Position numbers and translations under genes: made by a program. 64,000 nt of DNA from an uncultured Clostridia bacterium (GTDB lineage Bacteria; Bacillota; Clostridia; Oscillospirales; Ruminococcaceae): the NCBI GenBank assembly GCA_947168885.1, contig CAMVNQ010000004.1, positions 186,001-250,000 on the forward strand, in the 5' to 3' direction. The notes beneath the pieces were generated by a model. It made no database searches. It saw nothing but the letters and a program-made list of their open reading frames with translations, and had not been told where the DNA came from. Of the stretch, positions 18,980-60,301 are shown in pieces (position 1 is the stretch's first letter; every line of letters starts with the position of its first letter).

Positions 18980-19233
18980 ATGTCTGCTCATCAGCCAACA
19001 AATGGCTTCATAGCGCAGCTTGAAGCCATTTGTTGGCTGCAAAAGTGCAAGGAAAATTTTTATATTTTAGGATTCTCCTTGCACTTTTGTTCGTCCGAAG
19101 GACGAAATGAGCTTGACATCAAGGAATGTGTCCGTTGTGTAAATGCACCGCAGGCGCATTTACACAACATCTGAAAATCTGTTTTGCAGATTTTCAGTCA
19201 ATAACTGCCAAAAGGCAGTTATTGAGGACACAT
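18980..19233 (+). repeat. Structured repeat family A, full copy 1 (254 bp)
   Basis: The element begins ATGTCTGCTCA and ends TGAGGACACAT, an imperfect terminal inverted repeat (9 of 11). It is flanked on both sides by TATCTTA (18973-18979 and 19234-19240), a likely target-site duplication. Inside are six hairpins: 18993-19010 with 19021-19038 (18 bp), 19041-19053 with 19076-19088 (13 bp), 19090-19096 with 19100-19106 (7 bp), 19135-19146 with 19156-19167 (12 bp), 19171-19181 with 19187-19197 (11 bp) and 19198-19209 with 19214-19225 (12 bp). It differs from copy 2 at 11 positions with no insertion or deletion; six of the changes form three compensated base pairs. No transposase is encoded. Confidence 0.88.
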
Positions 19234-19772
19234 TATCTTATAAGCGTGATCTTTCCGATTATCGGAAGTTCTACCGCTTTTCCGCTGAATGTATTAACCA
19301 TACCGATTATCAGAAGCGCAAGGGTCGCAAGACCACCGAGCGAGCTTACGATGTACGATAACGCCCAGAAGAAACCGGCTACCCAGAAGCCGAGTGAACC
19401 GAATACACTGCTTACTATACTTACCGCAGCACAGACGATAAGGAGCAGAAGTCCCTGATTTGCGTGAAATCTCGCATACTTCGATTCTTTCGGACACGCT
19501 ACAAGCGGAAGGAAGAACAGAAAGCCGAAGTATGCAAAGCCGCATACAACCTTGTTAGCTTCGATGTCTGCCGGATCAAATTCAGATGTGTGATCTGCGC
19601 CGAGACTTGCAGCGACCTGCTTGAACTGTTCACCTGCGTTGCTGCCGCTGTTTGTGTTGGTATTTGCGTTATTTGCGTTTGCGCCTGCCGCACCTGATAC
19701 AGCTGCTCCGCAGCTCGGACAGTTATTAGCGCCGTCGGGTACCTGCGCCCCGCACTGATTACAAAAAGCCAT
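19233..19772 (-). CDS. Zinc-ribbon membrane protein
   Basis: 179 residues. The N-terminal zinc ribbon has CNQCG (residues 4-8) and CPSCG (18-22). A low-complexity Asn/Ala/Gly/Thr linker (about 25-48) leads to a membrane domain with about three helices (CGFAYFGFLFFLPLVACP onward), resembling DUF4870-type proteins. The last stop-codon base lies within repeat A1. It is the last gene of the TetR-recA-recX operon (three-base gap after recX) and its original terminator is at 18921-18957. Function unknown. Confidence 0.75.
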   Translation of the reverse strand: MAFCNQCGAQVPDGANNCPSCGAAVSGAAGANANNANTNTNSGSNAGEQFKQVAASLGADHTSEFDPADIEANKVVCGFAYFGFLFFLPLVACPKESKYARFHANQGLLLLIVCAAVSIVSSVFGSLGFWVAGFFWALSYIVSSLGGLATLALLIIGMVNTFSGKAVELPIIGKITLIR

Positions 19773-19775
19773 TTT

Positions 19776-20261
19776 TTAGTCCTCCTCATTCTGGATCTCG
19801 TCCTGTATTATATACAGGGCAGTTTTTATATCATTATAGCCGTATCCGCGTCTTGCGAGCGCGGCTATGACCTTCTGCATTTCCTTTTTCCCCTCTATTC
19901 CTCCGAGAAAAAGGCGATCGAAGTATTTCTTGCGGAGTATCTCCGCTATTTCACCGGTTATATCGTCTTCGGTATATTTGTCAAGGGCGGTCTCTATCGT
20001 CTGTGCATCAAGAAGCTTCTGCCGCATCATAAGCGCGGCTCTGCTTTTCCCGTACTTACGGACGGTTATGTACTGCTTTGCGAGCTTCTCGGCATAACGG
20101 TCGTCGTTGACGTAACCGTATTCGCACATAAGATCGGCGACGGTAACTGCGGTTTTCTCGCTGTAGTTGTTCTTAAGCTTCTCGATAAGCTCGTTCCTGC
20201 CGTAGTCACGCCCTCCGAGAAGATGCATCGCACGCCGTTTTGCTATATCAAGCTCTTCCAT
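19776..20261 (-). CDS. recX: RecA regulator RecX
   Basis: 161 residues, three RecX three-helix repeats: RRAMHLLGGRDYGRNELIEKL, then VNDDRYAEKLAKQYI, then a C-terminal YGYNDIKTALYII. RecX binds the groove of the RecA filament and modulates its growth and activity. It starts one base after the recA stop, the common recA-recX pairing, so the two are co-translated. Confidence 0.92.
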   Translation of the reverse strand: MEELDIAKRRAMHLLGGRDYGRNELIEKLKNNYSEKTAVTVADLMCEYGYVNDDRYAEKLAKQYITVRKYGKSRAALMMRQKLLDAQTIETALDKYTEDDITGEIAEILRKKYFDRLFLGGIEGKKEMQKVIAALARRGYGYNDIKTALYIIQDEIQNEED

Positions 20262-20262
20262 A

Positions 20263-21477
20263 TCACTCGTCTATCTCGTCGATAGAGAACTCTTCAAAGT
20301 CGTCGTCCGCTGCGACCACAACACTGCTCTTCTTTGCACGTCCCTTCTTCGGCTTTTCGGAGGGCTCTTCGGAAGCCGCGGTTTCGGGTGCCGGTGCAGA
20401 GGCATCGCTGTCGTTTTCTCCTGCTTCCTCGGGAGCCGCGTAGTCGAGCTGTTCCGCGCTCGCCCAGATCTTATCCTCGATCTCCTTCATAACGTCGGGG
20501 TTGTCGTCGAGGAACTTCTTCGTGTTTTCGCGACCCTGACCTATACGCATATCGTTATAGCTGAACCACGCGCCGGACTTCTTGATTATATCGAGCTCGA
20601 TAGCATAATCAAGAACCTCACCGGTGCGGGAGATACCGTGGCCGAAGATCATATCGAACTCACAGCTCTTGAACGGGGGAGCGACTTTATTCTTGATGAC
20701 CTTGCACTTGGTACGGTTGCCTATGGTGTCCGCGCCGTCCTTTATAGCTTCGCCCTTGCGGACTTCGATACGCACAGACGCATAGAACTTGAGTGCGCGT
20801 CCGCCCGGAGTTGTCTCGGGGTTACCGAACATTATACCTATCTTTTCTCGTATCTGGTTGATAAAGATAGCGACCGTATTGGATTTCGAGATGACTGCGG
20901 TAAGCTTCTTCATCGCGCCGGACATAAGTCTCGCCTGTACACCGACAAATGTATCACCCATATCGCCTTCGATCTCGGCTTTCGTTACCATTGCCGCCAC
21001 CGAGTCGAGAACAATTATATCTATCGCGCCGGAACGCACGAGAGCTTCCATTATATCGAGAGCCTGTTCACCGGTGTCGGGCTGGGACACTATGAGCTGA
21101 TCTACATCAACTCCGAGCGCTTTCGCGTAAACGGGGTCGAGGGCGTGCTCAACATCAACGAATGCCGCTATACCGCCACGCTTCTGCGCTTCAGCTATCG
21201 CGTGCAGGGTAACAGTCGTCTTACCGCCGGATTCCGGTCCGAATATCTCAATTATACGACCCTTAGGAAGTCCGCCTATACCAAGCGCCATATCAAGACC
21301 GATAGAACCGGTAGGTATCGCCTCTACATTGAGATTGGTCTTTTCGCCCATTCTCATTACAGAGCCTGCGCCGAACTGCTTTTCTATCTGTGCTATCGCC
21401 GCGTCAAGAGCTTTTTTCTTGTCTTCTGCCGTAACGGGCTTTTCAAGTCCCTTCTTGGGCGCTGCTGCTTTTGCCAT
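20263..21477 (-). CDS. recA: Recombinase RecA
   Basis: 404 residues; catalyses homologous pairing and strand exchange and promotes LexA autocleavage. Walker A reads GPESGGKTT (usual form GPESSGKTT), Walker [11 protein letters not shown], loop L1 around [12 protein letters not shown] and L2 around [20 protein letters not shown]. The C-terminal tail is extended and low-complexity (Asp/Ala/Glu-rich, then [11 protein letters not shown]), longer than the average 350-residue RecA. AAAGGACAG precedes the ATG. The gene begins two bases after a TetR-family gene, so both share a transcript. No LexA-type box was found upstream of that operon. Confidence 0.97.
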
Positions 21478-21479
21478 TT

Positions 21480-22064
21480 TTACTGTCCTTTCTTTTCTTT
21501 ATCGTTTTCCGTAGCCGCACATTTTGCAGCAATCTCTTCTATAACACCTTTTTTAAGTTCACAAAGCCGTATGAACCGCTCCTTTAGATCGCTTTTCATA
21601 CCTTCACGCTGCCAGTCGAGTATTTTACCGAAGCACGCGCATTTGTAGAAATCTATCAGTACCTCGCGGTCGAACTCGTTAATTTTCGTATCACCAAGAA
21701 CGCCGTCTATGTACTTCGTGACTGTGTATTCACATACTCGCCAGAGATACTGCTCATAAACATCGCGGCTTACGGAATTGTATATGTGCATGACCGCTTT
21801 ACGGTTGCTCATAGCGAAACTTACAGCCGCATCAATACACTCTTCAAGCGAGTTTATCGACGGGAACTGCTCAATGATGAGTTCTGCCTGCTCAAGCACC
21901 ATTTCTTCAATAAGCGAGGGCAGATCGCGGAAATGATAGTAGAATGAGTTCCGGTTTATCCCACAGTCCTCGACTATATCTTTTATCGTTATCTGATTTA
22001 CGGGCTTCTCATTCAATAGCTTCAATACCGAAGCCTTTATCGCCCTTTCTGTCAGATTTGCCAA
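21480..22064 (-). CDS. TetR/AcrR family transcriptional regulator
   Basis: 194 residues. The N-terminal helix-turn-helix reads [21 protein letters not shown] (about 25-45), the DhaS-like/TetR_C_7 subtype that binds upstream of its own operon. The C-terminal ligand/dimer domain is helical and family-unspecific. It is the first gene of an operon with recA, recX and the zinc-ribbon protein, which is unusual. The ligand is unknown. Autoregulation would place recA under TetR control; this is inference. Confidence 0.88.
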
Positions 22065-22081
22065 CTCCCGACCTCCAATCA

Positions 22082-22190
22082 GTCGGCGCCTGCGCGCCGA
22101 CGTGGGGACGGGAAACAGAACCCTTTTTGGGAAAAGGGTTCTTTCTCCCTCCCCACACCCCTATCCCTCTTTTTCTCAAAAACTTTTAAT
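22082..22190. repeat. GC-rich intergenic repeat with two hairpins
   Basis: GTCGGCGC with GCGCCGAC (22082-22101, loop CTGC) is followed by GAACCCTTTT with AAAAGGGTTC (22118-22141, loop TGGG), then a C-rich run and AAAACTTTT. The composition differs from the surrounding DNA and the format resembles dispersed intergenic repeats of Ruminococcus and related Clostridia (recollection, not verified). It is upstream of the TetR-recA operon and downstream of nothing on the plus strand. Confidence 0.55.
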
Positions 22191-22276
22191 GCTTCGCGAA
22201 TAAAGGGCGGGTGTTTATATACTTTTTTTATTATATCATAAACAAACAAAAAATACAACTGTTTTTTGTAAGATTT

Positions 22277-22897
22277 TCACACTCCGCCTTCAAGGAAATA
22301 AGACGATTCCATATCCGCAACCGAGAGAGCGAACGCGAGCGGGTACATCTCAAACGCTCTGCCTATAGTATTCCGGTCATTCGGGTCTCCGTAGGAAAAA
22401 CCCATGTGCCAGCGTATCGCCATGGCCTCCTCACGCGTTAGCCGCATAAACCCGCTTATCATATACACGCTCTTCTCGCCGTGGCCGTAGGGAAGGGTGT
22501 CCTCGATCCTGTAGTACGGGACCTTCTCCCATTGCCCTTGTTCGTTTTTTGCATTTCGGTAATCCACTTTATAAAAATCAGTCTTGCAAATATCATGCAG
22601 CAGTGCGACAAGTGCGATCTGTTCGTCGGTATAGCTGTTGACACCATAAGTCTCACGCACTCTCGGTCTCTCAAGATAATCTTTCAGGCAGTGATAAACA
22701 TTCAGCGAGTGCTGAGCAAGCCCGCCCTCGTACGCGCTGTGATACTTAGTGCTTGCCGGCGCGGTAAAAAAATCGCACTTATTCTCCAGATAATCAAGCA
22801 GTCTCTCTGCTCCCTCCCGCTTGATGTTCGCCTTATAAATATCTATAAATTCCGCCTTTATCTCCGCGGCGGAACGCGGTTTGTTGTTTGACTCCAT
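22277..22897 (-). CDS. HD-domain phosphohydrolase
   Basis: 206 residues from the ATG preceded by GGAGGAAAT; the frame opens 38 codons earlier inside the inverted repeat, and that part is not family-like. The HD domain shows HSLNVYHCL, then LLHDICK (the HD pair) and a third His in HGEKSVYMI, with the last metal ligand near VADMESS. Such small HD proteins hydrolyse nucleotides or phosphoesters in the cytosol. Substrate unknown. It stands alone, separated from the ABC gene by the large inverted repeat. Confidence 0.85.
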   Translation of the reverse strand: MESNNKPRSAAEIKAEFIDIYKANIKREGAERLLDYLENKCDFFTAPASTKYHSAYEGGLAQHSLNVYHCLKDYLERPRVRETYGVNSYTDEQIALVALLHDICKTDFYKVDYRNAKNEQGQWEKVPYYRIEDTLPYGHGEKSVYMISGFMRLTREEAMAIRWHMGFSYGDPNDRNTIGRAFEMYPLAFALSVADMESSYFLEGGV

Positions 22898-22930
22898 ATT
22901 TCCTCCGATCCGAAGTGCCAACAGCACACT

Positions 22931-23092
22931 GTTTTCCTTTCCTGGCTTAATTGCCACACATCGCGGTTCTGTACGGCTGTCAAGGGGGAGGCTCCAAATT
23001 TTTTCACCCATATTATTAAGTGAAAAAATTTGGAGTACCCTTTACAGCCGAATAAAACCGCGATATACTGGGTTAAGCCAAAGAAAGAAAAC
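22931..23092. repeat. 162-bp imperfect inverted repeat
   Basis: The arms run inward from GTTTTCCTTTCCTGGCTTAA on the left and the complementary CTTTCTTTGGCTTAACCC on the right. They share ATCGCGGTT and CGGCTGT blocks and meet in a perfect 16-bp stem CTCCAAATTTTTTCAC (22992-23007 with 23020-23035) around a 12-base loop. The whole segment can fold as one long hairpin. It lies between two minus-strand genes and is not coding. It could be a transposase-less element; no target duplication is evident. Confidence 0.7.
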
Positions 23093-23104
23093 CCGATATT
23101 AACG

Positions 23105-23139
23105 TAAAAATGCCGTACCGTTTTTACGCGGTACGGCAT
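23105..23139 (-). terminator. Terminator of the sugar ABC ATPase gene
   Basis: ATGCCGTACCG and CGGTACGGCAT form an 11-bp stem with an eight-base loop, followed on the minus strand by TTTTTACG. It starts 15 bases after the stop codon. Confidence 0.9.
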
Positions 23140-23153
23140 ATAGTCTGTAAAAC

Positions 23154-24296
23154 TTATGAAAGGATAGAGTGTTCGTCTGCCGCATCGAAGAGGTGGATCT
23201 TGTTGGGGTCGATAGCGAGCTTGACAACATCCTGGGGACGAGCAGCGCAGCGAGGAGAAACTCTTGCTGTGATAGGCATACCCTCGCAAGTGAGGTAGAG
23301 GTATGTCTCAGCACCCATCATTTCGGTTACATCGACGTTAGCCTCAATGATACCGGAAGTAGCGGATGTGATGAAGGATTCCTCGTCATGGATGCTCTCG
23401 GGACGAACGCCGAGAACAACGTCCTTATCAACGTAGTAGTTGAGAGCTTCGGGATCAGCCTTAGCGGACGGGATCTCAACATAGAACTTTCTTCCTCTGG
23501 AAGTCTTTGTATCCTCGGAACCGAACTCAACGGTGAACTTACCGTTCATCATGATAAGCTTAGCGTCGATGAAGTTCATCTGAGGTGTACCGATGAAGCC
23601 TGCAACGAACTTGTTAACAGGGTTCTCGTAAAGGTTGAGAGGCGAGTCGATCTGCTGGATGTAACCGTCCTTCATAACGACGATACGGTCACCCATCGTC
23701 ATAGCCTCGATCTGGTCATGGGTTACGTAGATGAATGTAGTACCGAGTTTCTTATGGAGCTTGGAGAGCTCGGTTCTCATCTGTGCACGGAGTTTTGCGT
23801 CGAGGTTTGAGAGAGGCTCGTCAAGTAAGAATACCTGCGGGTCACGAACTATAGCACGTCCGAGAGCCACACGCTGTCTCTGACCACCGGATAAAGCCTT
23901 CGGCTTTCTGTCGAGAAGGTGAGCTATATCGAGGATCTTAGCAGCTTCTTCAACGAGCTTTTTGATCTCATCTTTCGGAACTTTTCTGAGCTTAAGGCCG
24001 AAAGCCATATTCTCAAAAACTGTCATATGCGGATAAAGAGCGTAGTTCTGGAAAACCATCGCTATATCTCTGTCTTTAGGAGCAACGTCGTTAACGAGTC
24101 TGTCACCGATGAAGAGCTCGCCTTCGGATATTTCCTCAAGACCGGCGATCATACGGAGTGTTGTGGACTTACCGCATCCGGAAGGACCAACGAGGATAAT
24201 GAATTCCTTATCCTTGATGTTCATAGAGAAGTCGGATACCGCAACTACGCCGCCGGGGTAGCGCTTATATATGCCTCTTAATGATAAACTTGCCAT
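23154..24296 (-). CDS. Carbohydrate ABC transporter ATPase (MsmK/UgpC/MalK type)
   Basis: 380 residues from the ATG preceded by AGGAGG; the frame opens 19 codons earlier. Walker [10 protein letters not shown] (about 37-45), signature LSGGQRQR, Walker [17 protein letters not shown] and the switch His in [10 protein letters not shown] are all intact, and the last 130 residues form the TOBE/regulatory domain. No permease or binding-protein gene is adjacent, so this is a solitary, probably shared ATPase energising several sugar importers, as MsmK does in streptococci. That fits an organism living on oligosaccharides. It has its own terminator. Confidence 0.92.
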
Positions 24297-24647
24297 TTGG
24301 AGAACCTCCTGATTGAGTAATATTTTACTCATATATAATAACAGAATTTTCAATAAAATGTAAGTACCTAATTGACTAAAATTTTTTTCCCTGCTTTATA
24401 TAATCTGCCTAAACGGGACAAAACCGACCAAATCCCGCACTTGTTTTATGGTTATTATCAACAAACAGAGGTGTCGAAAAAGTGATTTTTAAAGGGTTTG
24501 ACGGGTTTCGCGATTTTATTTTTGGTCACTTTGCTTATTGAAGCCTATACTTTTTGTTGATTATTTCTCATATACTGTACAGAAAGGCAAAATCAAACAC
24601 TATATTTTGTTGAAATTGCAAAGAAAGACCTTGAAAGGAACTATATT
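24297..24647. other. AT-rich divergent intergenic region
   Basis: 351 bases between divergent genes. GAGTAA and TTACTC form a small palindrome at 24315-24330, directly upstream of the ribosome-binding site of the ABC gene. A weak minus-strand promoter candidate (TTTTGT, 17 bases, TATAAA near 24390-24420) is the best seen. No gene or RNA motif was recognised. Confidence 0.5.
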
Positions 24648-25073
24648 ATGAGAAAGATCACTGCACTTATCGCCGGTGCGGCAATTATTGCCGCTATCGT
24701 TCTTTCCTTTTCGTCCTGTGCAAGGACATATCCCGCAAAGACCGAGGAGCAGATCGTCGATATGCTCTCGGACTGCGGGATAGAGACCGCGGGCAGCTGC
24801 ACGAAAAAGACGGTCACTATACCCGACGAGTTCGGCGAAGTATATGAACGTTACAACGAGCTTCAGAAGCGGCAGGGCTTTGACCTGTGCCGCTATCGTT
24901 CGCGCGAAGCTGTTGTATATACTTTCCCGGTAGCGTCTGTGGACGGTGTACATACCGACTTCACCGAAGCACACGTTATGGTCTGCGACGACATAGTCAT
25001 AGGCGGAGATCTTGCAGAAACAGGCCTGAGCGGTGAGATGCTTCCGCTGTTGTCACGAGGCAAAAACAATTGA
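24648..25073 (+). CDS. DUF4830 lipoprotein
   Basis: 141 residues. Signal peptide with lipobox SFSSC gives lipidated Cys24. The remainder (KTEEQIVDMLSDCGIETAG; KTVTIPDEFGEVYERYNELQKRQGFDL) matches the DUF4830 family as I recall it. It would be anchored on the outer face of the membrane. Function unknown. GAAAGGAAC precedes the ATG. It is convergent with sigF with only 13 bases between the stop codons. Confidence 0.72.
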   Translation: MRKITALIAGAAIIAAIVLSFSSCARTYPAKTEEQIVDMLSDCGIETAGSCTKKTVTIPDEFGEVYERYNELQKRQGFDLCRYRSREAVVYTFPVASVDGVHTDFTEAHVMVCDDIVIGGDLAETGLSGEMLPLLSRGKNN

Positions 25074-25086
25074 TCTTTTGCCCGGA

Positions 25087-25737
25087 CTAAACAAGCATCG
25101 CCCGCAGTTCATCAAGTATCTTCTTCTCACGCCGCGAGACCTGGACCTGTGTCATACCAAGAATCCTTCCCGTTTCCGCCTGCGTCTTTTCAAGGCGGTA
25201 GCGCAGATATATGAGCCGTCTGTCCTGTTCGCCAAGCGAACCGAGACATTGCCCGAGCGCAATATACTCCGTGGTGCGCAGCTGCGGAGGTTCAACCGGA
25301 ACATCGAATTCAGAGCCGTCCTCCTCGCCGCTTGTAAGCGAAACCGCCGGGCGGGACGCGGCGATCGCTTCGGTCACGCTTTCGACCGTTTCACCGAGAT
25401 GATCGGCGATCTCGGCAACGGTAGGGCTTTTGCCCTGTGCCGAACATCTCTCGCGGTATGCCGTTATTTTCAGCGAGAGCTCCTTTATCGTCCGGCTCAC
25501 CTTTACCATGCCGCCGTCGCGGAACAGCCGCTTTATCTCGCCGAGGATCACCGGCACTGCATACGTCGAAAAGCACAGTCCCCGCGTTTCGTCAAACCCC
25601 CGGGCTGCTTTCACAAGCCCCATACATCCTGCCGAGACAAGCTCCTCATACTCGATACCGCGCCCGCGGAACCGGTTCGCAAGGGAATGCACAAGCCCCA
25701 TATTCTGTTCGACAAATTCATCGGTAAGTCTGTCCAT
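25087..25737 (-). CDS. sigF: Forespore sigma factor SigF
   Basis: 216 residues, a sigma-70 group 3 factor. Region 2 contains NRFRGRGIEYEELVSAGCMG and FDETRGLCFSTYAVPVILGEIKR; region 3 SRTIKELSLKI; region 4 RRLIYLRYRLEKTQAETGRILGMTQVQVSRREKKIL. The spoIIAA-spoIIAB-sigF order is diagnostic and separates it from sigG, which lacks those neighbours. The ATG follows the spoIIAB stop by two bases. SigF directs early forespore transcription after asymmetric division. Confidence 0.95.
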   Translation of the reverse strand: MDRLTDEFVEQNMGLVHSLANRFRGRGIEYEELVSAGCMGLVKAARGFDETRGLCFSTYAVPVILGEIKRLFRDGGMVKVSRTIKELSLKITAYRERCSAQGKSPTVAEIADHLGETVESVTEAIAASRPAVSLTSGEEDGSEFDVPVEPPQLRTTEYIALGQCLGSLGEQDRRLIYLRYRLEKTQAETGRILGMTQVQVSRREKKILDELRAMLV

Positions 25738-25739
25738 TT

Positions 25740-26177
25740 TTATCCTCTGCGGTGCAGCGTTTTCGTCATCGTCACGGCAGTTCCTTTTCCCGGCTTACTG
25801 CGGACTTTAAGGGTGTCGGTAAAACTCTCCATTACCGCGAAACCGAGCCCCGCGCGTTCGCCGTCGGGACTTGTCGTGAACATAGGCTGCATAGCCTGTC
25901 TGACATCGGCGATACCAACGCCCTTGTCCGATATTTTTATGTACAGGGTATCATCGCCTATAACGCGGAGTTTTATGTCTATATCTCCTATCGTGTCACG
26001 GTACCCGTGAACTATACAGTTCGTGACCGCTTCGGATACGGCGGCTTTTATATCGTTTATCTCCTCGACAGTAGGGTCAAGCTGCGCCGCAAACGCCGAC
26101 ACACACATTCTCGCGAGAGCTTCATTCTTTGAATAGCCCGCGATCGTCATTTTCATCTGGTTTGTCACCGGTCTCAC
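25740..26177 (-). CDS. spoIIAB: Anti-sigma F factor SpoIIAB
   Basis: 145 residues, a GHKL-type protein kinase that holds SigF inactive and phosphorylates SpoIIAA. The ATP-binding boxes are visible: AVSEAVTNCIVHGYRD (N box), IKISDKGVGIADVRQAM (G1) and ERAGLGFAVMESF (G2). It starts with GTG that overlaps the spoIIAA stop by four bases, with GGAGCG eight bases upstream. Confidence 0.95.
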   Translation of the reverse strand: MRPVTNQMKMTIAGYSKNEALARMCVSAFAAQLDPTVEEINDIKAAVSEAVTNCIVHGYRDTIGDIDIKLRVIGDDTLYIKISDKGVGIADVRQAMQPMFTTSPDGERAGLGFAVMESFTDTLKVRSKPGKGTAVTMTKTLHRRG

Positions 26178-26503
26178 TTCTTACGCTCCTTTCCGTCGGG
26201 TCTCGGCGTTATGAGTGACCCGAGCCCCGACATTTTCAGTATCTTTTCCGCCCGCGCGGAAGGGTCTTTTATCCTGACCTTTCCTCCCCACTGCTTCATT
26301 GCTCTTGCGCGGCCAAGGACAAGACCGACCCCGGAGCTGTCCATAAACGTGACCCCGCTCATGTCAAACGTGAGCACCTCCGGCGTGGTGCGCTCAAGTT
26401 CCCCGTCTATCGTTATCCGTATATCCGCCGCAGCGTGGTGATCTATCTCGCCCGTGACAGCCGCCGTCATATTCCTTTTGTCGTGCAGTATCTCAACGCT
26501 CAT
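26174..26503 (-). CDS. spoIIAA: Anti-anti-sigma F factor SpoIIAA
   Basis: 109 residues, STAS domain. The phosphorylatable Ser lies in FMDSSGVGLVLGR (about residues 54-66). In its unphosphorylated form it binds SpoIIAB and frees SigF. AAGGAGGGGG precedes the ATG. In known spore formers this operon is transcribed by sigma-H; no clear sigma-H promoter was identified in the 230 bases upstream. Confidence 0.94.
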   Translation of the reverse strand: MSVEILHDKRNMTAAVTGEIDHHAAADIRITIDGELERTTPEVLTFDMSGVTFMDSSGVGLVLGRARAMKQWGGKVRIKDPSARAEKILKMSGLGSLITPRPDGKERKK

Positions 26504-26601
26504 AATTCCCCCTCCTTACGTCCTTAACAATATACCACTTTTTTTCTGTATTTCTTGTCGAAACCGGTCACCGGCTGATTTTTCGTGCGACAGGAACCAA
26601 C

Positions 26602-26626
26602 AAAAAATGCAGCGCTTTCGCGCTGC
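26602..26626 (-). terminator. Second terminator after the FliD-like gene
   Basis: GCAGCGC and GCGCTGC with a four-base loop are followed on the minus strand by ATTTTTTG. It stands between the FliD-like gene and spoIIAA and isolates the spoIIA operon. Confidence 0.75.
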
Positions 26627-26686
26627 TGCCGGGTTTTAATATCTTACAAATCACTTGACAGGCATACATCAAGTATCGTCGCAATA

Positions 26687-26717
26687 TAAAAAACAGCAGA
26701 CCCGAGGCCTGCTGTTT
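26687..26717 (-). terminator. Terminator of the FliD-like gene
   Basis: AAACAGCAG and CTGCTGTTT form a nine-base-pair stem with a nine-base loop and are followed by TTT on the minus strand. It is 18 bases after the stop codon at 26736. Confidence 0.8.
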
Positions 26718-26735
26718 ACGAAATCTGCTGTTTTA

Positions 26736-27491: not shown

Positions 27492-27568
27492 ATTTGCTCC
27501 TCCTTCTTTATGCTGCTTATCGTGATGCCTGTCTCGCTGCATAAAGCGTTGAGACGGTCTCTTCTTTA

Positions 27569-27725
27569 GGGCACCTCTAAAAACCGCTTTGAAAAGAGAA
27601 AATGAGATAATTGTGCCGAGAGCAAGGAGAGGCTCCGAAAGCGTGCTGGCGCACGGTGAGGAGGCTTGACGCAGCTATCGGTGCAAGTAGCTCTTTTTCT
27701 CTCAAATGGGTTTTTAGAGGTTCCC
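27569..27725. repeat. Structured repeat family B, copy 1 (157 bp)
   Basis: Terminal inverted repeats GGGCACCTCTAAAAACC and its counterpart ending AGAGGTTCCC continue inward as TTTGAAAAGAGAAAA against TTTTTCTCTCAAA, giving about 30 paired bases with bulges. The centre holds small hairpins, GGAG-AGG-CTCC and CGTGC-TGGC-GCACG. TTTA flanks both ends (27565-27568 and 27726-27729). Copy 2 at 44237-44393 has the same length and differs at six positions, two of them compensating in the GGAG/CTCC stem. No open frame. Confidence 0.82.
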
Positions 27726-27787
27726 TTTATATAACATTATACCATATTTTTCAGAAAAGTCAATCACTTAATGATACGATGTAATAC

Positions 27788-27816: not shown

Positions 27817-27890
27817 AGTACAGATGTGTAAATATATAGTATTTTAAAAGGTTGTCCCCAAGGCAGGGAATACAGAAAGGACTGCGTTAA

Positions 27891-30413: not shown

Positions 30414-30416
30414 GAT

Positions 30417-44224: not shown

Positions 44225-44236
44225 GTTTTTTATTTT

Positions 44237-44393
44237 GGGAACCTCTAAAAACCGCTTTGAAAAGAGAAAATGAGATAATTGTGCCAAGAGCAAGGAAAGG
44301 TTCCGAAAGCGTGCTGATGCACGGTGAGGAGGCTTGACGCAGCTATCGGTGCAAGTAGCTCTTTTTCTCTCAAATGGGTTTTTAGAGGTTCCC
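44237..44393. repeat. Structured repeat family B, copy 2 (157 bp)
   Basis: Terminal inverted repeats GGGAACCTCTAAAAACC and AGAGGTTCCC are perfect over the outer 17 bases here. TTTT flanks both ends (44233-44236 and 44394-44397). Relative to copy 1 the internal stem changes from GGAG/CTCC to GGAA/TTCC, keeping the pairing, and the CGTGC hairpin changes only in its loop. It lies between the divergent parA and znuA promoters. Confidence 0.82.
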
Positions 44394-44410
44394 TTTTGTA
44401 GAGACTGCCG

Positions 44411-47628: not shown

Positions 47629-47657
47629 GCCCTCACCTCCGATGACCGGTCATTTTT

Positions 47658-47715
47658 AATCTGTTTTGCAGATTTTCAGTCAATAACTGCCAAAAGGCAG
47701 TTATTGAGGACACAT
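47658..47715 (+). repeat. Structured repeat family A, 3'-terminal relic (58 bp)
   Basis: It matches the last 58 bases of family A copies, including most of hairpin 5 and all of hairpin 6 (AATAACTGCC with GGCAGTTATT) and the terminal TGAGGACACAT. The five preceding hairpin-bearing segments are missing. It lies downstream of the terminator of the TIR-like gene. Confidence 0.85.
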
Positions 47716-52803: not shown

Positions 52804-52833
52804 TTACACATTCCTTCTTTATCAAGCCAACCC

Positions 52834-53520
52834 TCACAGCGGTTTTTTCGCTATTTTCGCCGAGACGCGGGGATACTGCTGCGGAGTAGGGGAGACCTTC
52901 TTTATTACGATAAGGTTTCGTTTATCACCGCAAGGAAGCGTGTACTTCTTCACGCTTTCTATCTCTCCGCCAAGCTTCTTTACAGCATTTTCAGCTTCAG
53001 ATACTTCATCCTTTTCTCCCTTTAACGCAGCGAATGTTCCGCCAACCTCAACAAATGGCAGACAATATTCACTCAATACGTTAAGTGCTGCAACAGCCCT
53101 TGCCACTGCAAGACCGTACTTTTCTCTGTATTTTTCATTCTGTCCGAGCTCTTCTCCGCGCGCGTGGATAGTTTCACAGGTCAGACCGAGAAGACTGCAA
53201 GCGCTGTCAAGATAGGTTATGCGCTTGTTTGAACTGTCGAGCAGTGTAAATTCAAGATCTGGGCGGTATATCTTCATTGGAAGGGACGGAAAGCCCGCAC
53301 CGGCACCAATATCAATCACTCTTGTTCCACGTGGAACATCAACCATTGTCAGCGGAAGTATGCTGTCAATATAGTGCTTTTCGATTATCTCGTCCGGCTC
53401 GGTTATCCGGGTGAGGTTCACATTTCTGTTGTATTCTACCATATAAGAGGCAAGCTTGTCAAGTTTTGTTAACTGATCTTCGGAAAGGATTATCCCGCAT
53501 TCGCTGTATTTATTATTCAT
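52834..53520 (-). CDS. rsmG: 16S rRNA (guanine(527)-N7)-methyltransferase RsmG
   Basis: 228 residues. SAM-binding motif I is [18 protein letters not shown], motif [16 protein letters not shown], and [10 protein letters not shown] is the family signature. The ATG lies inside the end of mnmG (eight-base overlap) with GGAGG upstream, giving the classic mnmG-rsmG pair. A parS site is embedded in its coding sequence at 53323-53338. Confidence 0.96.
53323..53338. promoter_or_regulatory. parS site 1 (inside rsmG)
   Basis: TGTTCCACGTGGAACA, a perfect 16-base palindrome matching the bacterial parS consensus TGTTTCACGTGAAACA except for one symmetric base-pair change. In rsmG it encodes part of VDVPRGTRV. 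Confidence 0.9.
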
Positions 53521-55390
53521 TCTTTCCTCCGTTCGCGGCAAGCCATATAAGCAGCACCGAAATATCTGCGGGATTAACTCCCGAAATGCGACCTGCCTGT
53601 CCGATGTTTAGCGGACGGTGCTCATTAAGTTTTTCCTGTGCTTCGAGCCTGAGACCGCTTATTTTCGTATAATCTATATTCTGTGGAAGAAGCCTGTTTT
53701 CAAGACGCTGCATCTCTTTTATCTTAGCAAGCTGAGTTTTGATGTATCCTTCATATTTGATGTTTACTTCAAGTTTTTCAGCTATTTCGGGTCTTATATG
53801 AGGATCATTATCATCAAAAACTATAAGATCAGAATATCCGAGCTGCGGACGGCGTAACAATTCAATAAACCTCACAGCCTGATCTATGGGAGATGTACCT
53901 TTTTCAACAAGCATCTTATTGAGTTTCTCAGAAGGACGTAAAGAGGTTTTCTTTATTCGTTCTGTTTCAGCTTCTACTTCTTTCTTCATTCTGAGAAAAT
54001 GTTCAAATCTTTCGTCTGATATAAGTCCGATTTCATGTCCGAGCTCGGTAAGTCGTTCCGGCGCATTATCCTGTCGTATTATCAAACGGTATTCGCTTCG
54101 TGAAGTCATCATACGATAAGGTTCGACACAACCTTTGGTAACAAGATCGTCTATCAGAGTTCCAATATAAGAATTGGATCGGTCAAGTATTATCTGATCC
54201 TTTCCCTGTATTTTTCTTGCGGCGTTTATACCTGCTACAAGACCCTGAGCTGCTGCTTCTTCATAACCCGATGTAGAGTTGAACTGACCTGCTCCGTAAA
54301 GTCCGGATATTTTTTTCGTTTCAAGAGTTGCATAAAGATCAAGCGGGTCAAGACAATCATATTCAATTGCATACGCCGGTCTCATTATCTCTACATTTTC
54401 CAGACCTTTAATTGTCCGCAAAAATGCGAGCTGGACATCTTCCGGAAGGGAAGTGCTCATACCCTGTAAATAGTATTCGTCAGTGTCAAGTCCCATAGGC
54501 TCGACAAAAAGCTGGTGGCGTTCTTTATCTTTAAAACGCATCAGCTTTGTTTCTATACTCGGACAGTAACGTGGTCCTACACCTACTATCTTTCCCGAAT
54601 AAAGTGCTGAACGATCAAGATTATCAAGTATTATTTTATGCGTTCTCTCATTGGTGTATGTTACATAGCACTTTGCTTTGTTTTCAAGCGGAAGTTTATT
54701 ATCGAATGAGAAAGGAGTGATATCTTCATCACCGCCCTGTTCTTCCATAACAGAGAAATCTATTGATCTTTTATGGACTCTCGCCGGAGTTCCTGTCTTA
54801 AACCTTCTTATCCGGAGACCGAGTTTTTTTAAACTTTCGGTAAGTTCAGTTGATGGATTTACATTATCAGGTCCGCTCTTATAAGAGGTAGTACCTATGA
54901 ATATTTCTCCTCCGAGGTATGTTCCGGTAGTGATAATGACTGCACTCGCTTCACAGAATCCGCCGAGTTTTGTTTCAACTCCGGTAACTTTTCCGTTCTC
55001 TACACAAACTTTAGTGACCTCTGCCTGTTTCACATCGAGAAGAGGTTCTTTTTCAAGCGTATGCTTCATATAAGTATGATACTTCACTCTGTCAGACTGT
55101 ACACGAAGAGAATGCACCGCAGGCCCTTTTCCGCGGTTTAGCATACGGGACTGGATAAAAGTTGCGTCTGCTGCTATACCCATTTGTCCACCGAGAGCAT
55201 CTATCTCACTTACGAGCTGTCCTTTTGCACTTCCGCCTATGCTCGGATTACATGGCATATTTGCAATTGTATCGAGCGAGAGCACAAAAACAACTGTTTT
55301 CATTCCAAGACGTGCTGCTGCAAGTGCGGCTTCGCACCCTGCGTGACCTGCACCTACTACAGCAACATCATATTTTCCAAGATTATATAT
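53513..55390 (-). CDS. mnmG: tRNA uridine 5-carboxymethylaminomethyl(34) synthesis protein MnmG
   Basis: About 625 residues if started at the ATA at 55390, normal length for the family. With MnmE it installs cmnm5 at wobble uridines. The FAD-binding N-terminus [20 protein letters not shown] is encoded from 55363 leftward, so the first in-frame ATG (55303) would delete the FAD site. Upstream the frame is open to a TAA at 55103+302 (55405-55403) but contains no ATG, GTG or TTG. Its codons after the stop read GCT GGT GAT ACT ATA TAT AAT CTT GGA AAA; GGTGAT could act as ribosome-binding site for the ATA. Other motifs ([21 protein letters not shown]) are intact. Confidence 0.9.
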
Positions 55391-55424
55391 AGTATCACCA
55401 GCTTAATTAAATTACATTATCTTG

Positions 55425-55440
55425 TGTTCCACGTGGAACA
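55425..55440. promoter_or_regulatory. parS site 2
   Basis: TGTTCCACGTGGAACA, identical to sites 1 and 3. It lies 35 bases upstream of the presumed mnmG start, so ParB spreading from here could influence mnmG transcription. Confidence 0.9.
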
Positions 55441-55652
55441 AGCGTGACGCTTGACCCAATAGCCGCCCGGAGTCACAGTAAAAAACAAGTCACAGTAACG
55501 GCGGCTGCGCTTGCGGCGAATTTCATCTATTTCAACTCACATCAGCACGGCTGTCTCCCGTAAAAGGAGAAAGTGAAATTTGGAGTTTTGTCATTCAATC
55601 AGATTCTATATTTCTGTTATATTATTATAGAAAAGAACTTTTATAGCTCCTA

Positions 55653-55668
55653 TGTTCCACGTGGAACA
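55653..55668. promoter_or_regulatory. parS site 3
   Basis: TGTTCCACGTGGAACA, identical to sites 1 and 2, 44 bases beyond the stop codon of the class II aldolase gene. Confidence 0.9.
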
Positions 55669-55711
55669 CTACTTATTGTATTTGTTAAATTTCTAACGCC
55701 AAAATATATTA

Positions 55712-56458
55712 TCAATCTGAATATTTTTTGAACCCAGGATGTTTCAGTGCATAACCCTTTGATAAGTCACAGGTTTCTTTGAGCATTTCATCAGGTATTT
55801 GTTTTGGTCCGCCGAGAAGTCGGGCGGTAAGAATAGTTTTAGCGTAGAGTTCAAGAGATTCAAGTTTATGGAAAGCCTGTTTCAGATCAGCTCCCACTGT
55901 AATAACTCCGTGGTTAGCAAGAAGTACTGCGTCATGATTTCTGATATACGGAGCAATGCTTTCAGGAACATCATCCGAACCGGGTACAGCATAAGGAGCT
56001 ATTGGAACAGAACCAAAGATCATGACAGCTTCTGAAAGAGCATAATCGTCAAGAGGAATACCTGCCGCTGCAAATCCTGTTGCCGTGGGAGGATGAGCGT
56101 GTATCACGGCGTTTATATCAGGTCTTTCACGATAGCATCTCAGATGCATCTTGAATTCTGATGAAGGTCTGAATAAATATTTGTCCCGGTCATATCCGTC
56201 AGAGGTATCAACATGGATTATCTCATTCGGTTTTGATGTCCTGTCCGGACTCATCTCCGCTTTGCATATTCCCGAAGGTGTAGTCAGATATTCAAATTCT
56301 CCTGTCCTTACAGAGATATTTCCGTCGGTCGCTGCAACAAAACCGAGATCATACATTTTTTTTCCGATATCACAGATCTCCTTTTTTATATGTTCCAGTA
56401 TCTCTTCTTCTTCCATTCCTTTAAAAATAAATTCGTCGTATAATTCTTTGTAAATCAT
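55712..56458 (-). CDS. Class II aldolase/adducin family protein (L-fuculose-phosphate aldolase type)
   Basis: 248 residues. Zinc ligands are the His pair of VIHAHPPTATGF and the later His of LANHGVITVG; the catalytic Glu lies in LSEAVMIFG. ATDGNISVR is the phosphate-binding segment. AAGGAG precedes the ATG. Relatives cleave fuculose 1-phosphate, ribulose 5-phosphate or methylthioribulose phosphate; the N-terminal extension and the lack of sugar genes nearby leave the substrate open. Last gene of the rsmI operon. Confidence 0.88.
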   Translation of the reverse strand: MIYKELYDEFIFKGMEEEEILEHIKKEICDIGKKMYDLGFVAATDGNISVRTGEFEYLTTPSGICKAEMSPDRTSKPNEIIHVDTSDGYDRDKYLFRPSSEFKMHLRCYRERPDINAVIHAHPPTATGFAAAGIPLDDYALSEAVMIFGSVPIAPYAVPGSDDVPESIAPYIRNHDAVLLANHGVITVGADLKQAFHKLESLELYAKTILTARLLGGPKQIPDEMLKETCDLSKGYALKHPGFKKYSD

Positions 56459-56471
56459 TTTATTCTCCTTA

Positions 56472-57332
56472 TCAGAAATCCGGAGTCATATCGAGATTTT
56501 CGCATCCCTTTTCCTGCATAAATCCGTCAAGACCGAGATCAGCACAATATTCCGTGACCTTTTCGTATTCAAATGTCGTCAGCTTTCTATTGATCTCCGA
56601 ATATTTATATGCATTATAGCAGGGTGTGTACTGCCTCATAATGCTTACAAGTGGACGAACCGGAAAAGCTGCGATCTCATCGAGTATTTTCATACTGTCA
56701 TGATAACCTTTAGGAAGGACAAGGTGACGTACGATAACCCCGCTATGTATAATACAGTTATCATCAAATACAGCTTTCGGCTGTTGTCTTATCATTTCTT
56801 TCAGAGCAGGCAGAGCTTTTTCAAAATAATCCTGCGCGCCGGAGTATTTTGCAGACATCTCAGTACTATAATACTTCATATCCGGAAGAAATATATCAAC
56901 AAGACCATCAAGCATTTTTAGTGTCTCTATATTCTCATATCCGCCGCAGTTATAAACTATCGGTATTCCCAGATTTTTCTTATGTTTTTTCAGAACATTC
57001 GCTATCTTATCTGCATAATGTGTTCCGGTAACAAAGTTTATATTATGCGCACCTTTGTCGCGAAGTTCATACATTATTTCCGTGAGACGATCCTCATTTA
57101 CCGTCTCACCTTTAAGTTCATGACTTATCGGATAATTCTGGCAGAATACACAGCGAAGACTGCAGCCGGAAAAAAATATTGCACCGCTTCCGTTTTTACC
57201 GCTTATGCAGGGTTCTTCACCAAAGTGCAGCATATATTTTGCAATTTTTATTTCATCTGTACATCCACAGTAACCGGTTTTTTCTTTTCTGTCAACACGG
57301 CAGTTCCGCGGACAAAGCCTGCACTCATTCAT
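56472..57332 (-). CDS. Radical SAM protein, pyruvate formate-lyase-activase-like
   Basis: 286 residues. An N-terminal Cys-rich segment CRLCPRNCRVDRKEKTGYCG (residues 4-23) may hold a further metal or cluster. The radical SAM motif CSLRCVFC (CxxxCxxC) follows at about 57-64 with QNYPIS after it. NCGGYE and LPDMKYY match the PflA-like subfamily. AAGGAG precedes the ATG. Target protein unknown; no glycyl-radical enzyme gene is adjacent. It overlaps the preceding gene by eight bases. Confidence 0.88.
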   Translation of the reverse strand: MNECRLCPRNCRVDRKEKTGYCGCTDEIKIAKYMLHFGEEPCISGKNGSGAIFFSGCSLRCVFCQNYPISHELKGETVNEDRLTEIMYELRDKGAHNINFVTGTHYADKIANVLKKHKKNLGIPIVYNCGGYENIETLKMLDGLVDIFLPDMKYYSTEMSAKYSGAQDYFEKALPALKEMIRQQPKAVFDDNCIIHSGVIVRHLVLPKGYHDSMKILDEIAAFPVRPLVSIMRQYTPCYNAYKYSEINRKLTTFEYEKVTEYCADLGLDGFMQEKGCENLDMTPDF

Positions 57333-58542
57333 CTTTGTTCAGCTCCTTCGCGAATTTTTCCGCACGTTCGAATGCGTATAATATTTCGCCCTGATATTCC
57401 GGATCTTCACGGTAGAGCATAGGATCGAAATGAGCAAGTTTATAACAGAATGTTACAATGATTGCGTACTGCTTCATCAAAAGCAGTCTATCCATTGATG
57501 TCCAGTAATTTTCTATGGTATGCTTCTTTATGTATTGTCTTAGTTCGCCATTCAGACCGTCATATTTGAATATGCTCTCACATACCGACGCAAGAGAAGC
57601 AGTCGCGTAATACATTGAATAATTATCCATGACTTCCGCGAGGTCTTTCATATTCACAGGAGGAAGTTCTGTCTGTGAAAATTTGGTTATTATGTGTATG
57701 AACATATTTGCTATCTCTATTCCGTTACCGTTATACACAATTGTAACAAGATCTCCGGATAGGTCGCAGAGCCTTTTTTCTTTATCGAAGCTCTTTATAT
57801 CAAATACAGTATTCTTTTCGTATAAATCTTCAAGCGTAAATCCGCCGTAAGCTATCGCAAAAAGAGACGAAAAACTTATGCGCGTTTTCGGGTCGGAAAG
57901 ATCGGTGAGACACTTATCCTTTTTTGCGGAAAGAATAGCATTCATCTCATCAAGAGAGATCGGGCGGTTATTAAGTTTCAGATTTGAACTGAAACGCCGG
58001 AAGTTATATTTGTCAATAAGTTCTTTATACTTTATAGTATTCTGCATCCCGAATTTTACTGCCGCAAGACGAACAGATTCAAGTATTATCTTTGCTTTTT
58101 TATTGAGATTCAGACTTTTTTTGTTTTCTTTAACTGAAACGGTTTTTTTCTTTTTTGTTTCATCGTTCAGGAGACTTAAACTGGCATTTTCGGGTTCTTT
58201 TACATATGCCTTATCTGTGTCGCACATAAGACCGGAGATACGTACATGATCTCCGTTATACATTTTTTTGAGAAGGAATGCTGTCTTAATAACTTCTTTA
58301 TCACGATCCCTTATTTTTTTCAGATAAAACTCACAGCACTCAGAAAAAGATTTATCGCCTACAAAAACAAGATCAAACACATCGATCCCTATCTTTTCGG
58401 CAGACTGAATACACGGGCTTCCAAAGATATATTCTTTCATACGAAGGAGATATTCTATCGTTGTTTTTTCGGAAAGGATGACACGCGGAGAAAAGAAAAA
58501 TGTTTTGATACATTTCGGAACATCTGTTACTGCTATTTCCAC
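57325..58542 (-). CDS. Protein of unknown function in the rsmI operon
   Basis: About 406 residues from GTG at 58542, which is nine bases after GGAGGG; the ATG at 58551 is too close to that site. No signal peptide or membrane helix. A Lys-rich linker (about 125-150) divides an N-terminal part (TFFFSPRVILSEKTTIEYLL; VFDLVFVGDKSFSE) from a helical C-terminal part that includes SLFAIAYGGFTLEDLYEKNT and KQYAIIVTFCYKLAHFD. No family recognised. Tight packing between rsmI and the radical SAM gene suggests joint expression. Confidence 0.65.
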   Translation of the reverse strand: MEIAVTDVPKCIKTFFFSPRVILSEKTTIEYLLRMKEYIFGSPCIQSAEKIGIDVFDLVFVGDKSFSECCEFYLKKIRDRDKEVIKTAFLLKKMYNGDHVRISGLMCDTDKAYVKEPENASLSLLNDETKKKKTVSVKENKKSLNLNKKAKIILESVRLAAVKFGMQNTIKYKELIDKYNFRRFSSNLKLNNRPISLDEMNAILSAKKDKCLTDLSDPKTRISFSSLFAIAYGGFTLEDLYEKNTVFDIKSFDKEKRLCDLSGDLVTIVYNGNGIEIANMFIHIITKFSQTELPPVNMKDLAEVMDNYSMYYATASLASVCESIFKYDGLNGELRQYIKKHTIENYWTSMDRLLLMKQYAIIVTFCYKLAHFDPMLYREDPEYQGEILYAFERAEKFAKELNKDE

Positions 58543-58579
58543 AATTATCATCCCTCCTTTTTTCAATTCAATCGCTGAA

Positions 58580-59407
58580 TTATTTTTCTTCTATTATAAT
58601 AGTATATATCTCACTTTTTGAGAATCCGAATTTCTTTGCAGCCTCTTTACAAGCTTCTGATGCCTTTTTACCGTTCTCTATTTCTTTTTTTGCAAATTTC
58701 ACAGCATCCTCAATATCTCCGGACTTTTCTTCTTCTTCCAAAGCACCTTCAACAACAAGTACATACTCGCCCTTCGGAGTTTTATCCGAATAATAATTTA
58801 TCATCTCAGAGATTTTACCGCGCAGTACCTCTTCATGTATTTTAGTAAGTTCGCGGCAAAGTGATATTCTTCTGTCTCCAAGTGCCGAAAGAAGATCGTC
58901 AAGAGTATTTTTCAGTTTATGCGGAGCTTCATAAAAAATAAGTGTTCGTTTATAATCCTTTATTTCATCAAGATGAGCATTTCTTTGTTTTTTTGTGACA
59001 CTCAGAAATCCTTCAAAAGAGAAACGTGATGTAGAAAGTCCCGATATAGCAAGCGCTGACATTGCAGCGGTAGGGGAGGGAACAACGTTCACTTCTATTC
59101 CTCGCTCTGCACAAAGCCTTACAAGATCTTCTCCCGGATCGGAAATACAAGGCATTCCTGCGTCGGTAACTATTGCGCAGGTTTCACCCGCACTGATACG
59201 GTCAACGATATATTCTCCCTTTTCACGAAGATTATGTTCATAGTAGCTCACAAGAGGTTTGTGTATATCAAAATGGGTTAGAAGTTTCATTGTAACTCTT
59301 GTATCCTCGGCTGCAATAAAATCCACGGATCCGAGTATCTCAAGAGCACGCGGACTCATATCCGAAAGATTTCCTATCGGAGTTCCTACCACATACAGCT
59401 TAGACAT
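58580..59407 (-). CDS. rsmI: 16S rRNA (cytidine(1402)-2'-O)-methyltransferase RsmI
   Basis: 275 residues. Tetrapyrrole-methylase fold with LYVVGTPIGNLSDMSPRALE at the N-terminus, AAEDTRVT and VTDAGMPCISDPG as SAM-binding signatures, and FYEAPHKLKNTL. It 2'-O-methylates C1402 in the decoding centre, partner of RsmH. AAAGGGTG precedes the ATG. First gene of a four-gene minus-strand operon. Confidence 0.96.
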   Translation of the reverse strand: MSKLYVVGTPIGNLSDMSPRALEILGSVDFIAAEDTRVTMKLLTHFDIHKPLVSYYEHNLREKGEYIVDRISAGETCAIVTDAGMPCISDPGEDLVRLCAERGIEVNVVPSPTAAMSALAISGLSTSRFSFEGFLSVTKKQRNAHLDEIKDYKRTLIFYEAPHKLKNTLDDLLSALGDRRISLCRELTKIHEEVLRGKISEMINYYSDKTPKGEYVLVVEGALEEEEKSGDIEDAVKFAKKEIENGKKASEACKEAAKKFGFSKSEIYTIIIEEK

Positions 59408-60047
59408 TTGTATTCACCCTTTTTACGGCAGCACAATAAATTACTGCTTTATAATTCAACATACTTTTATAAAAAATTTACATGTTCATAACAAATCAAC
59501 GATACTTTTTATTTTAACATTAATACCTATGTTGAAAACCGCATAAACAAGCCTTATTTTAACAAATTCAACCAAGTTTTCAACTGTTCATAGCATTCTT
59601 AAAGTTCAAAACTGGCTTTTTTCAACAGATTCAACCGAAATTATGTTAAAAAAAATCTTTTTACAGTTTGTATTTTAGTATTACATAAATATACCTGATA
59701 ATGATATAAAAAAATATTTTTTATGTCTCTGCAAACCCTATTGTTTATCGACTTTTGAAGCATACTAAAATTGTATATAAAACACATACTAAATTGTGCA
59801 TATTATACAAATAAAATGAGTTCGTTTACAGTTGAAAAAAATACTGTGTTAAAAAATCCTCAAAGTCTCTTGTTTAGAGACAATCTAACACTTTCAACCA
59901 AGTTTTCAACAAAAATATCGGTTGAAAACTTAATTTCAACTTTTTCTGTTGAAAGAGACTTTTACGGGGAATAAATTTTGATTTAAGTTACATTTAAGTG
60001 ACAATAATACAAAATGTAGATAAAAACTTCTTGACAAATCATATTTA
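59408..60047. other. AT-rich non-coding region with repeated GTTGAAAAC motifs
   Basis: 640 bases, strongly AT-rich, without a credible gene. TTCAACCAAGTTTTCAAC occurs twice exactly (59567-59584 and 59893-59910). GTTGAAAAC recurs in the opposite sense at 59531 and 59921, with further TTCAAC or GTTGAAA at 59455, 59620-59636, 59831, 59935 and 59949. Sites with one mismatch to the DnaA box occur (for example TGTGCATAT at 59795), but none is perfect. The clustering suggests binding sites of one protein. Confidence 0.65.
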
Positions 60048-60301
60048 ATGTCTGCTCATCAGCCAATAAATTGCTTCTTAGCGCAGCTTGAAGCAATTTA
60101 TTGGCTGCAAAAGTGCAAGGAAAATTTATATATTTTAGGATTTTCCATGCACTTTTGTTCGTCCGAAGGACGAAATGAGCTTGACATCAAGGAATGTGTC
60201 CGTTGTTTAAATGCACCGCAGGCGCATTTAAACAACATCTGAAAATCTGTTTTGCAGATTTTCAGCCAATAACTGCCAAAAGGCAGTTATTGAGGACACA
60301 T
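60048..60301 (+). repeat. Structured repeat family A, full copy 2 (254 bp)
   Basis: Same length and ends as copy 1, with TATTTA on both sides (60042-60047 and 60302-60307). All six hairpins are kept. Compared with copy 1, three stem pairs change on both strands: C-G to T-A and G-C to T-A in hairpin 1 and G-C to T-A in hairpin 4. Single unpaired changes lie mainly in loops, or cost one pair each in hairpins 1, 2 and 6. It lies 21 bases upstream of the 88-residue gene, so it would form part of that gene's leader. Confidence 0.88.

Follow-up and report, generated by a model that had tools for sequence, protein, structure and literature searches.

A 64,000-nucleotide stretch of DNA from an uncultured Clostridia bacterium of the Ruminococcaceae (contig CAMVNQ010000004.1, positions 186,001 to 250,000; hereafter the window) carries two copies of a 254-bp repeat that folds into six hairpins, and this repeat is probably a structured, non-autonomous transposable element of the kind known as miniature inverted-repeat transposable elements (MITEs), spread within one genus. 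An initial annotation of the window had proposed a candidate structured mobile repeat or non-coding RNA family; the repeat is indeed mobile and structured and has many homologues, and its inverted ends, its target duplications and the empty sites opposite one of its copies make a MITE-like element the better description.

The two copies (copy 1 at 18980-19233 and copy 2 at 60048-60301) are of equal length. Eleven positions differ between them, and six of these form three double changes that replace one Watson-Crick pair by another: 18999 with 19032 (C-G to T-A), 19004 with 19027 (G-C to T-A) and 19139 with 19163 (G-C to T-A). These values, on which the initial annotation had rested its case, were recomputed and are exact to the base, as is a 58-bp relic of the 3' end that it had reported. 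Among the remaining five differences, 19075 is unpaired, while 19010, 19060, 19079 and 19198 are one-sided, uncompensated changes in predicted pairs. Other copies contain mismatched intermediates of two of the double changes (C.A in 9/44, G.A in 1/44), which could therefore have arisen stepwise. Neither 254-bp copy holds an open reading frame (ORF) of transposase size, and the end of copy 1 coincides with the stop codon of a minus-strand ORF (19233-19772).

Mobility, host range and target choice

The element is bounded by imperfect terminal inverted repeats of 11 bp, ATGTCTGCTCA and ATGTGTCCTCA, and the pattern of its ends matches at 41 places in the genome of origin as opposed to one for a reversed control. 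We extracted 87 distinct copies, 85 of them with both flanks present. Exact target duplications of 6 bp enclose 59 of the 85 and duplications of 7 bp a further four, and the resulting 63 duplications of at least 6 bp compare with a mean of 15.9 and a maximum of 25 after random re-pairing of the flanks. At the locus of copy 2 the joined flanks fall into a single alignment in eight genomes (G002, G089, G071, G077, G088, G060, G076 and G033); six of seven closely realigned relatives have no element at this site, the seventh alignment being too short to cover the junction, and divergence of the intergenic sequence prevents a base-level reading of the empty site. The element is thus short, without a transposase gene, multicopy and dispersed, with terminal inverted repeats, target duplications and empty sites, and the inverted ends and duplications therefore identify it as a MITE-like mobile element. 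IS200/IS605-type (Y1) elements, REP sequences and their relatives insert without target duplication, and an assignment to this group was rejected on the duplications observed. Adjacent elements or relics with a common target motif were noted at two loci (L101, G000:C8:57953-58022; L232, G000:C11:13441-13748), and two copies in the same orientation lie about 0.46 kb apart in G024:C74 (L049).

The genome of origin (3.78 Mb in 32 contigs) yields 53 blastn matches to the element, some of them reverse images of its palindromes. Fourteen matches span bases 1-254, six being 95-100% and eight 73-78% identical to copy 1. The copy numbers of draft genomes are lower bounds, since contigs C9, C11, C13, C17, C19 and C28 of G000 end inside element copies. 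By blastn the element occurs in 9 of 60 genomes including its own, all of the same genus and one by a 28-base match only. The initial annotation had named a covariance-model search as the way to check its proposal; when this was run on 71 genomes from the genus, the genome of origin among them, 18 gave homologues of the first structural domain (domain I) and 21 of the second (domain II). Domain II matches total 347 in the genus, a figure that may count weaker reverse-strand images. One of the domain I models (R2) had hairpins 2 and 3 placed one column off; its matches stand with lower scores, and the domain I pair counts given below were taken from model R3. Across 394 sampled genomes of the order no convincing family member was found beyond the genus: five genomes matched, namely the genome of origin, two further members of the genus and two weak cases elsewhere, and the weak matches of model R1 in G271 and G041 were rejected because the folded stretches contain no double cloverleaf. 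Phages and plasmids gave no element by blastn and viral contigs no match to an exact 20-base word, and a phage or plasmid passenger was rejected on these grounds; a chance palindrome present in two copies was likewise rejected on the family in the genome of origin and in the genus. Among the matches listed for the linker word, by which loci were collected, are metagenome-assembled genomes labelled Ruminiclostridium, Ruminococcus, Ruminococcaceae and uncultured Clostridia, and many of the records so listed bear titles naming the rumen or another ruminant stomach.

In the orientation of the element the target reads TWNTTATA, which opens 44/85 right flanks and whose reverse complement TATAAWNA is a sigma-A -10 box on the element's minus strand. 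Of the non-palindromic duplications, 35 match either TWHTTA or its reverse complement, and every one of these has the same orientation (p = 6e-11); four other asymmetric duplications (TAGTTA, AAATTA, CAATTA and GAATTA) fall outside both classes, and each has TTA as its last three bases. At the palindromic TAATTA sites (20 copies) the following TA lies on the right in 15 and on the left in 2. The right end carries an exact TATAAT on the minus strand in 31/85 copies. With duplicates and right flanks that open another element removed, a -35-like hexamer at 17-bp spacing matches at least five of six positions in 11/72 right flanks, compared to 2.1 averaged over offsets, and at least four of six in 27/72, compared to 9.8. 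Gene calls, which are crude, place a ribosome site plus the start of a minus-strand gene no more than 250 bp to the left of the element in 7/8 scored copies with a strong -35 versus 27/56 others, and give a left neighbour on the minus strand in 41/62. In all 11 cases of a single flank departing from TWNTTA the departure is on the left, as expected if the right duplicate still serves as a -10 box; one further unequal pair has no valid motif. From these observations we infer that a subset of copies, perhaps a sixth to a quarter, lies between the -10 box of a promoter and its gene.

A search of the genome of origin at E 0.001 returned neither DDE_Tnp_1 (PF01609) nor Transposase_mut (PF00872), for which the same searches were positive in 9/14 and 6/14 control genomes. 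It holds two rve (PF00665) genes, rejected as the source because their ends do not match those of the element. All 41 exact end patterns were assigned to copies, relics or contig ends, and of the near-matches at 12 places among those listed for this genome, some are small relic palindromes or relics and others look like chance. In G002 two left ends enclose 3.3 kb that was considered as an autonomous element (L086); this candidate was discarded on its unequal flanks and on ORFs that look host-like by eye.

The double cloverleaf and its pair-preserving changes

Both window copies are predicted to fold far more stably than expected of their composition: copy 1 reaches z = -18.7 under RNA and -17.5 under DNA parameters, none of 200 shuffles being equally stable, and copy 2 has z = -15.9 with RNA parameters. 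The six hairpins form two three-arm cloverleafs in tandem, domain I followed by domain II (Table 1), whose closing stems contain the element's own ends, the left end in domain I and the right end in domain II. Conservation of the linker and the choice of copies are both biased, loci having been collected by an exact 20-base linker word (at least 101 stretches).

Table 1. Positions in the window of the element copies, their domains, ends and flanking duplications
Feature	Position	Strand	Details
Copy 1 of the element, 254 bp	18980-19233	+	blastn, fold, covariance models R1 and R3
Left target duplication of copy 1, 7 bp	18973-18979	+	TATCTTA
Right target duplication of copy 1, 7 bp	19234-19240	+	TATCTTA
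Left terminal inverted repeat	18980-18990	+	ATGTCTGCTCA; also within 5' arm of domain I closing stem
Right terminal inverted repeat	19223-19233	-	ATGTGTCCTCA (minus strand); includes 3' arm of domain II closing stem
Domain I cloverleaf	18980-19119	+	hairpins 18992-19039, 19040-19089, 19090-19106; closing stem ATGTC.GCTCAT / ATGAGC..GACAT
Linker between domains I and II	19120-19125	+	CAAGGA; within conserved stretch
Domain II cloverleaf	19126-19233	+	three hairpins; closing stem ATGTGTCC / GGACACAT
3' relic, 58 bp	47658-47715	+	copy 1 bases 197-254 exactly; then TAATTA
Copy 2 of the element, 254 bp	60048-60301	+	about 20 bp upstream of plus-strand ORF at 60323
Left target duplication of copy 2, 6 bp	60042-60047	+	TATTTA
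Right target duplication of copy 2, 6 bp	60302-60307	+	TATTTA

Across 27 non-redundant copies, 31 of the 107 pairs show two-sided changes, and the covariation score of 0.223 exceeds both that of shuffled alignments (0.100, sd 0.004) and that obtained with slid partners (0.035-0.056). The balance of two-sided to one-sided stem changes shifts with divergence: among 44 unique full copies, compared pairwise and so not independently, with four poorly paired or variable pairs left out, it is 4 to 324 at identities of at least 97%, 63 to 443 at 93-97%, 1021 to 943 at 85-93% and 7878 to 4974 below 85%. A similar division emerges from the 50 unique full copies when five such pairs are left out and pair types are sorted by their frequency. 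Types seen once comprise 1 Watson-Crick, 18 G.U, 21 A.C and 42 other; those present in at least two copies comprise 38 Watson-Crick, 17 G.U, 6 A.C and 12 other. Private changes are thus almost never compensated (1/82) and shared ones often are (38/73 Watson-Crick), which suggests a constraint on propagation: copies seem to drift after insertion, the constraint lying in the lineages that keep spreading. The initial annotation had read the double changes as selection on a folded single strand; the pattern does not speak for selection on every inserted copy, and the folded molecule may be RNA or DNA.

The architecture extends to elements with partly different ends in G024, G025 and G018, which keep the order of domain I and domain II with three arms each, although part of domain I has been lost from copy L251 of G018. 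Duplications or near-duplications of the same type as in the main family were seen by eye at these elements (TACATA and TAATTA in G018, TAATTG/TAATTA in G025, TAATTA in G024). Compared to copy 1, domain II shows 136 two-sided and 50 one-sided pair changes in 13 other sequences, and domain I (model R3) 110 and 63 in 12 others, in alignments that were fitted to the structure and so make these figures lean towards it. The counts use 14/36 rows for domain II and 13/25 for domain I, leaving out the weaker matches on the reverse strand, one locus that was an overlapping duplicate and some additional main-family copies; the rows retained include copy 2 and one more main-family copy, and several copies come from one genome.

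Hairpins are gained and lost as modules. Derivatives of 51-213 bp lack hairpins while retaining both ends, many of them with duplications, and 126-bp copies consist of domain II only. Enlarged copies of 322-323 bp retain the ends and have an additional hairpin module within hairpin 4 (L088, L094 and L095; L180 is of the same length class). Two palindromes (L221, G000:C11:30467; L232, G000:C11:13699), each about 45 bp long and built from hairpin 6 with a right-type end on either side, represent minimal relatives or relics. Hairpin tips are inverted with respect to other aligned copies in L060 and in the minus-strand copy L087 (hairpin 1 in 1/44 and hairpin 4 in 1/44), suggesting recombination or template switching within the hairpin. 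Over the relic in the window the match of model R1 runs from 47638 to 47710, and no left duplication matches the TAATTA on its right.

Elsewhere in the window, a second repeat family (27557-27728 and 44225-44396; 172 bp, 94% identical) has ends like GTTTTTAGAGGTTCCC, and strings resembling GTTTTTAGAGGTTCCC are also found in sequence flanking the element in related genomes (L176, L191). A palindrome, TGTTCCACGTGGAACA, is present three times (53323-53338, 55425-55440 and 55653-55668), and a RecF/SMC-like gene lies at 60841-61974. The palindromes presumably resemble parS sites, and together with this gene they suggest that the region is near a replication origin.

Weighing the explanations

Several observations weigh against a MITE-like element that settles in promoters. 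The searches for PF01609, PF00872 and PF00665 uncovered no mobilising enzyme in the genome of origin, other transposase families including Y1 not having been searched, and no autonomous relative with matching ends appears among the matches listed when mismatched ends were allowed or the search was extended genus-wide. For copy 1 no relative spans the junction, and hence no empty site was seen. The flanks are unequal in 22/85 copies, 10 of which carry two different valid motifs; this is compatible both with recombination between copies and with a coupling-sequence mechanism. As for the promoters, the left-flank control is also raised at the -35 offset (4/76 at five or more of six positions, mean 1.7; 17/76 at four or more), and the crude gene calls place a plus-strand start within 250 bp to the right of 6/8 strong -35 copies versus 21/56 others, so that some of the former may be divergent gene pairs. 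Neither window copy lies at an evident promoter. With regard to the fold, one of five covariation measures, the number of further pair types, is not above the shuffles (72 vs 75.8). Derivatives without domain I persist with duplications; the whole fold is therefore not needed for persistence, and is probably dispensable for movement too.

The fold invites the alternative that the family is a functional structured RNA, either a regulatory 5' leader or a small RNA, dispersed by transposition and selected as RNA. The strong covariation favours this reading, a subset of copies may be transcribed as 5' leaders, and G.U outnumbers A.C on the plus strand among shared variant types (17 vs 6), in all 16 cluster consensuses (37 vs 20) and across lineages in domain II (27 vs 9, copy 1 included). 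The bias is not upheld elsewhere: variants seen once have no such preference and almost no compensation, the consensuses of the five clusters with at least three copies give 5 G.U and 5 A.C, and domain I across lineages gives 14 and 13. The cluster-consensus counts omit four poorly paired or variable pairs; with pairs of this kind included, the count over individual cells is 121 G.U to 92 A.C. The strand-wobble tests thus disagree and the RNA-strand bias is inconsistent. The plus strand folds better in only 26/50 copies with RNA parameters and 22/50 with DNA parameters, and for copies in promoters the expected transcript is from the minus strand, on which a plus-strand G.U becomes C.A. A known RNA family was rejected as well, in agreement with the initial annotation, which had recognised no RNA motif: Rfam has no match in the window at gathering score, and its best hit on copy 1 is snR82 at E 0.3. 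On balance we regard RNA function as an unlikely source of the constraint.

Paired changes could also come about without selection, if template switching corrected one arm of a palindrome from the other. The inverted hairpin tips are expected from such events within hairpins; against this, the great excess of one-sided changes among copies at least 97% identical demonstrates that correction is not fast, and 5-8 pairs are mismatched in other ways in some of the most diverged single copies. Hairpins are missing from a relic that appears to be old, and local correction of arms leaves both the kept branching pattern and the closing stems unexplained. A slow clock of arm correction is possible, yet as an account of the paired changes homogenisation strikes us as improbable. 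The manner of insertion raises a different question, namely whether a tyrosine-recombinase-like or other oriented site-specific reaction with a 6-bp overlap acts in place of a DDE transposase. The strict orientation to an asymmetric 8-bp site would suit it, as would the nature of the unequal flanks, 19/22 of which show a single-base difference (in 12 at one of the motif's two variable positions), and the validity of the right side in all 11 one-sided cases. Identical flanks in 59/85 copies, the duplication of several different 6-mers and the exact 7-bp duplications in four copies speak against it, and we give the overlap mechanism little credence.

Relation to known repeats and significance

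Promoter-directed transposition is shared with some mutator-type elements, from which the element differs in that its duplicated target overlaps the -10 box itself and its own genome has no PF00872 match. TnGBS has also been linked with promoter-directed insertion, and the BOX elements of Streptococcus pneumoniae are modular, palindrome-rich structured repeats with an RNA fold. A possible T-box-like motif has been mentioned for BOX elements (PMC10969869). Prokaryotic MITEs in general are characterised as small and gene-free, bounded by terminal inverted repeats and direct repeats, directed to AT-rich intergenic targets and predicted to form stable stem-loops (PMC10969869); compared to that description the present element stands apart by its tandem double three-arm cloverleaf, pair-preserving change across lineages, modular gain and loss of hairpins, oriented insertion and the lack of a recognised parental insertion sequence. 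The repeats bcr1-bcr18 of the Bacillus cereus group, also listed in PMC2267715, are described as dispersed and intergenic, with a conserved secondary structure in some families, and bcr1-bcr3 as MITE-like and often located within untranslated regions (PMC3446304). Their host group differs, and the likeness is drawn from their description. Among the open-licence PMC papers listed by literature searches aimed at such a MITE, none reports one from this group. As far as is known, the double cloverleaf, its persistence across lineages, the modular hairpins and the oriented targeting of -10 boxes are unusual.

If the repeat is a MITE-like element, an enzyme supplied in trans, probably DDE-like and making a 6-bp staggered cut, would move it. 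In a subset of insertions the host promoter would stay intact at the right end, with minus-strand transcription starting at the boundary of the element. Hairpins would be kept because folded elements propagate better, each copy drifting after insertion, and the benefit to propagation might lie in hairpin or cruciform DNA at the time of transfer or in a structured leader that renders insertion into a promoter harmless. A bolder proposal, to which we assign a low probability, holds that the element works as its double cloverleaf, a folded single strand or extruded cruciform delivered one way into -10 boxes opened by RNA polymerase, by an enzyme other than the common transposases. Were it true, promoter-directed transposition would have a new mode, with the element marked by structure and not by the sequence of its ends alone.

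Although mobile repeats with structure abound, the level at which selection acts on their folds can seldom be assigned; here the clear split between private and shared changes points to the propagating lineage. Oriented insertion at -10-like sites, with a right duplicate that stays true to the motif, furthermore offers a testable idea of how a mobile element may settle in promoters without killing them.

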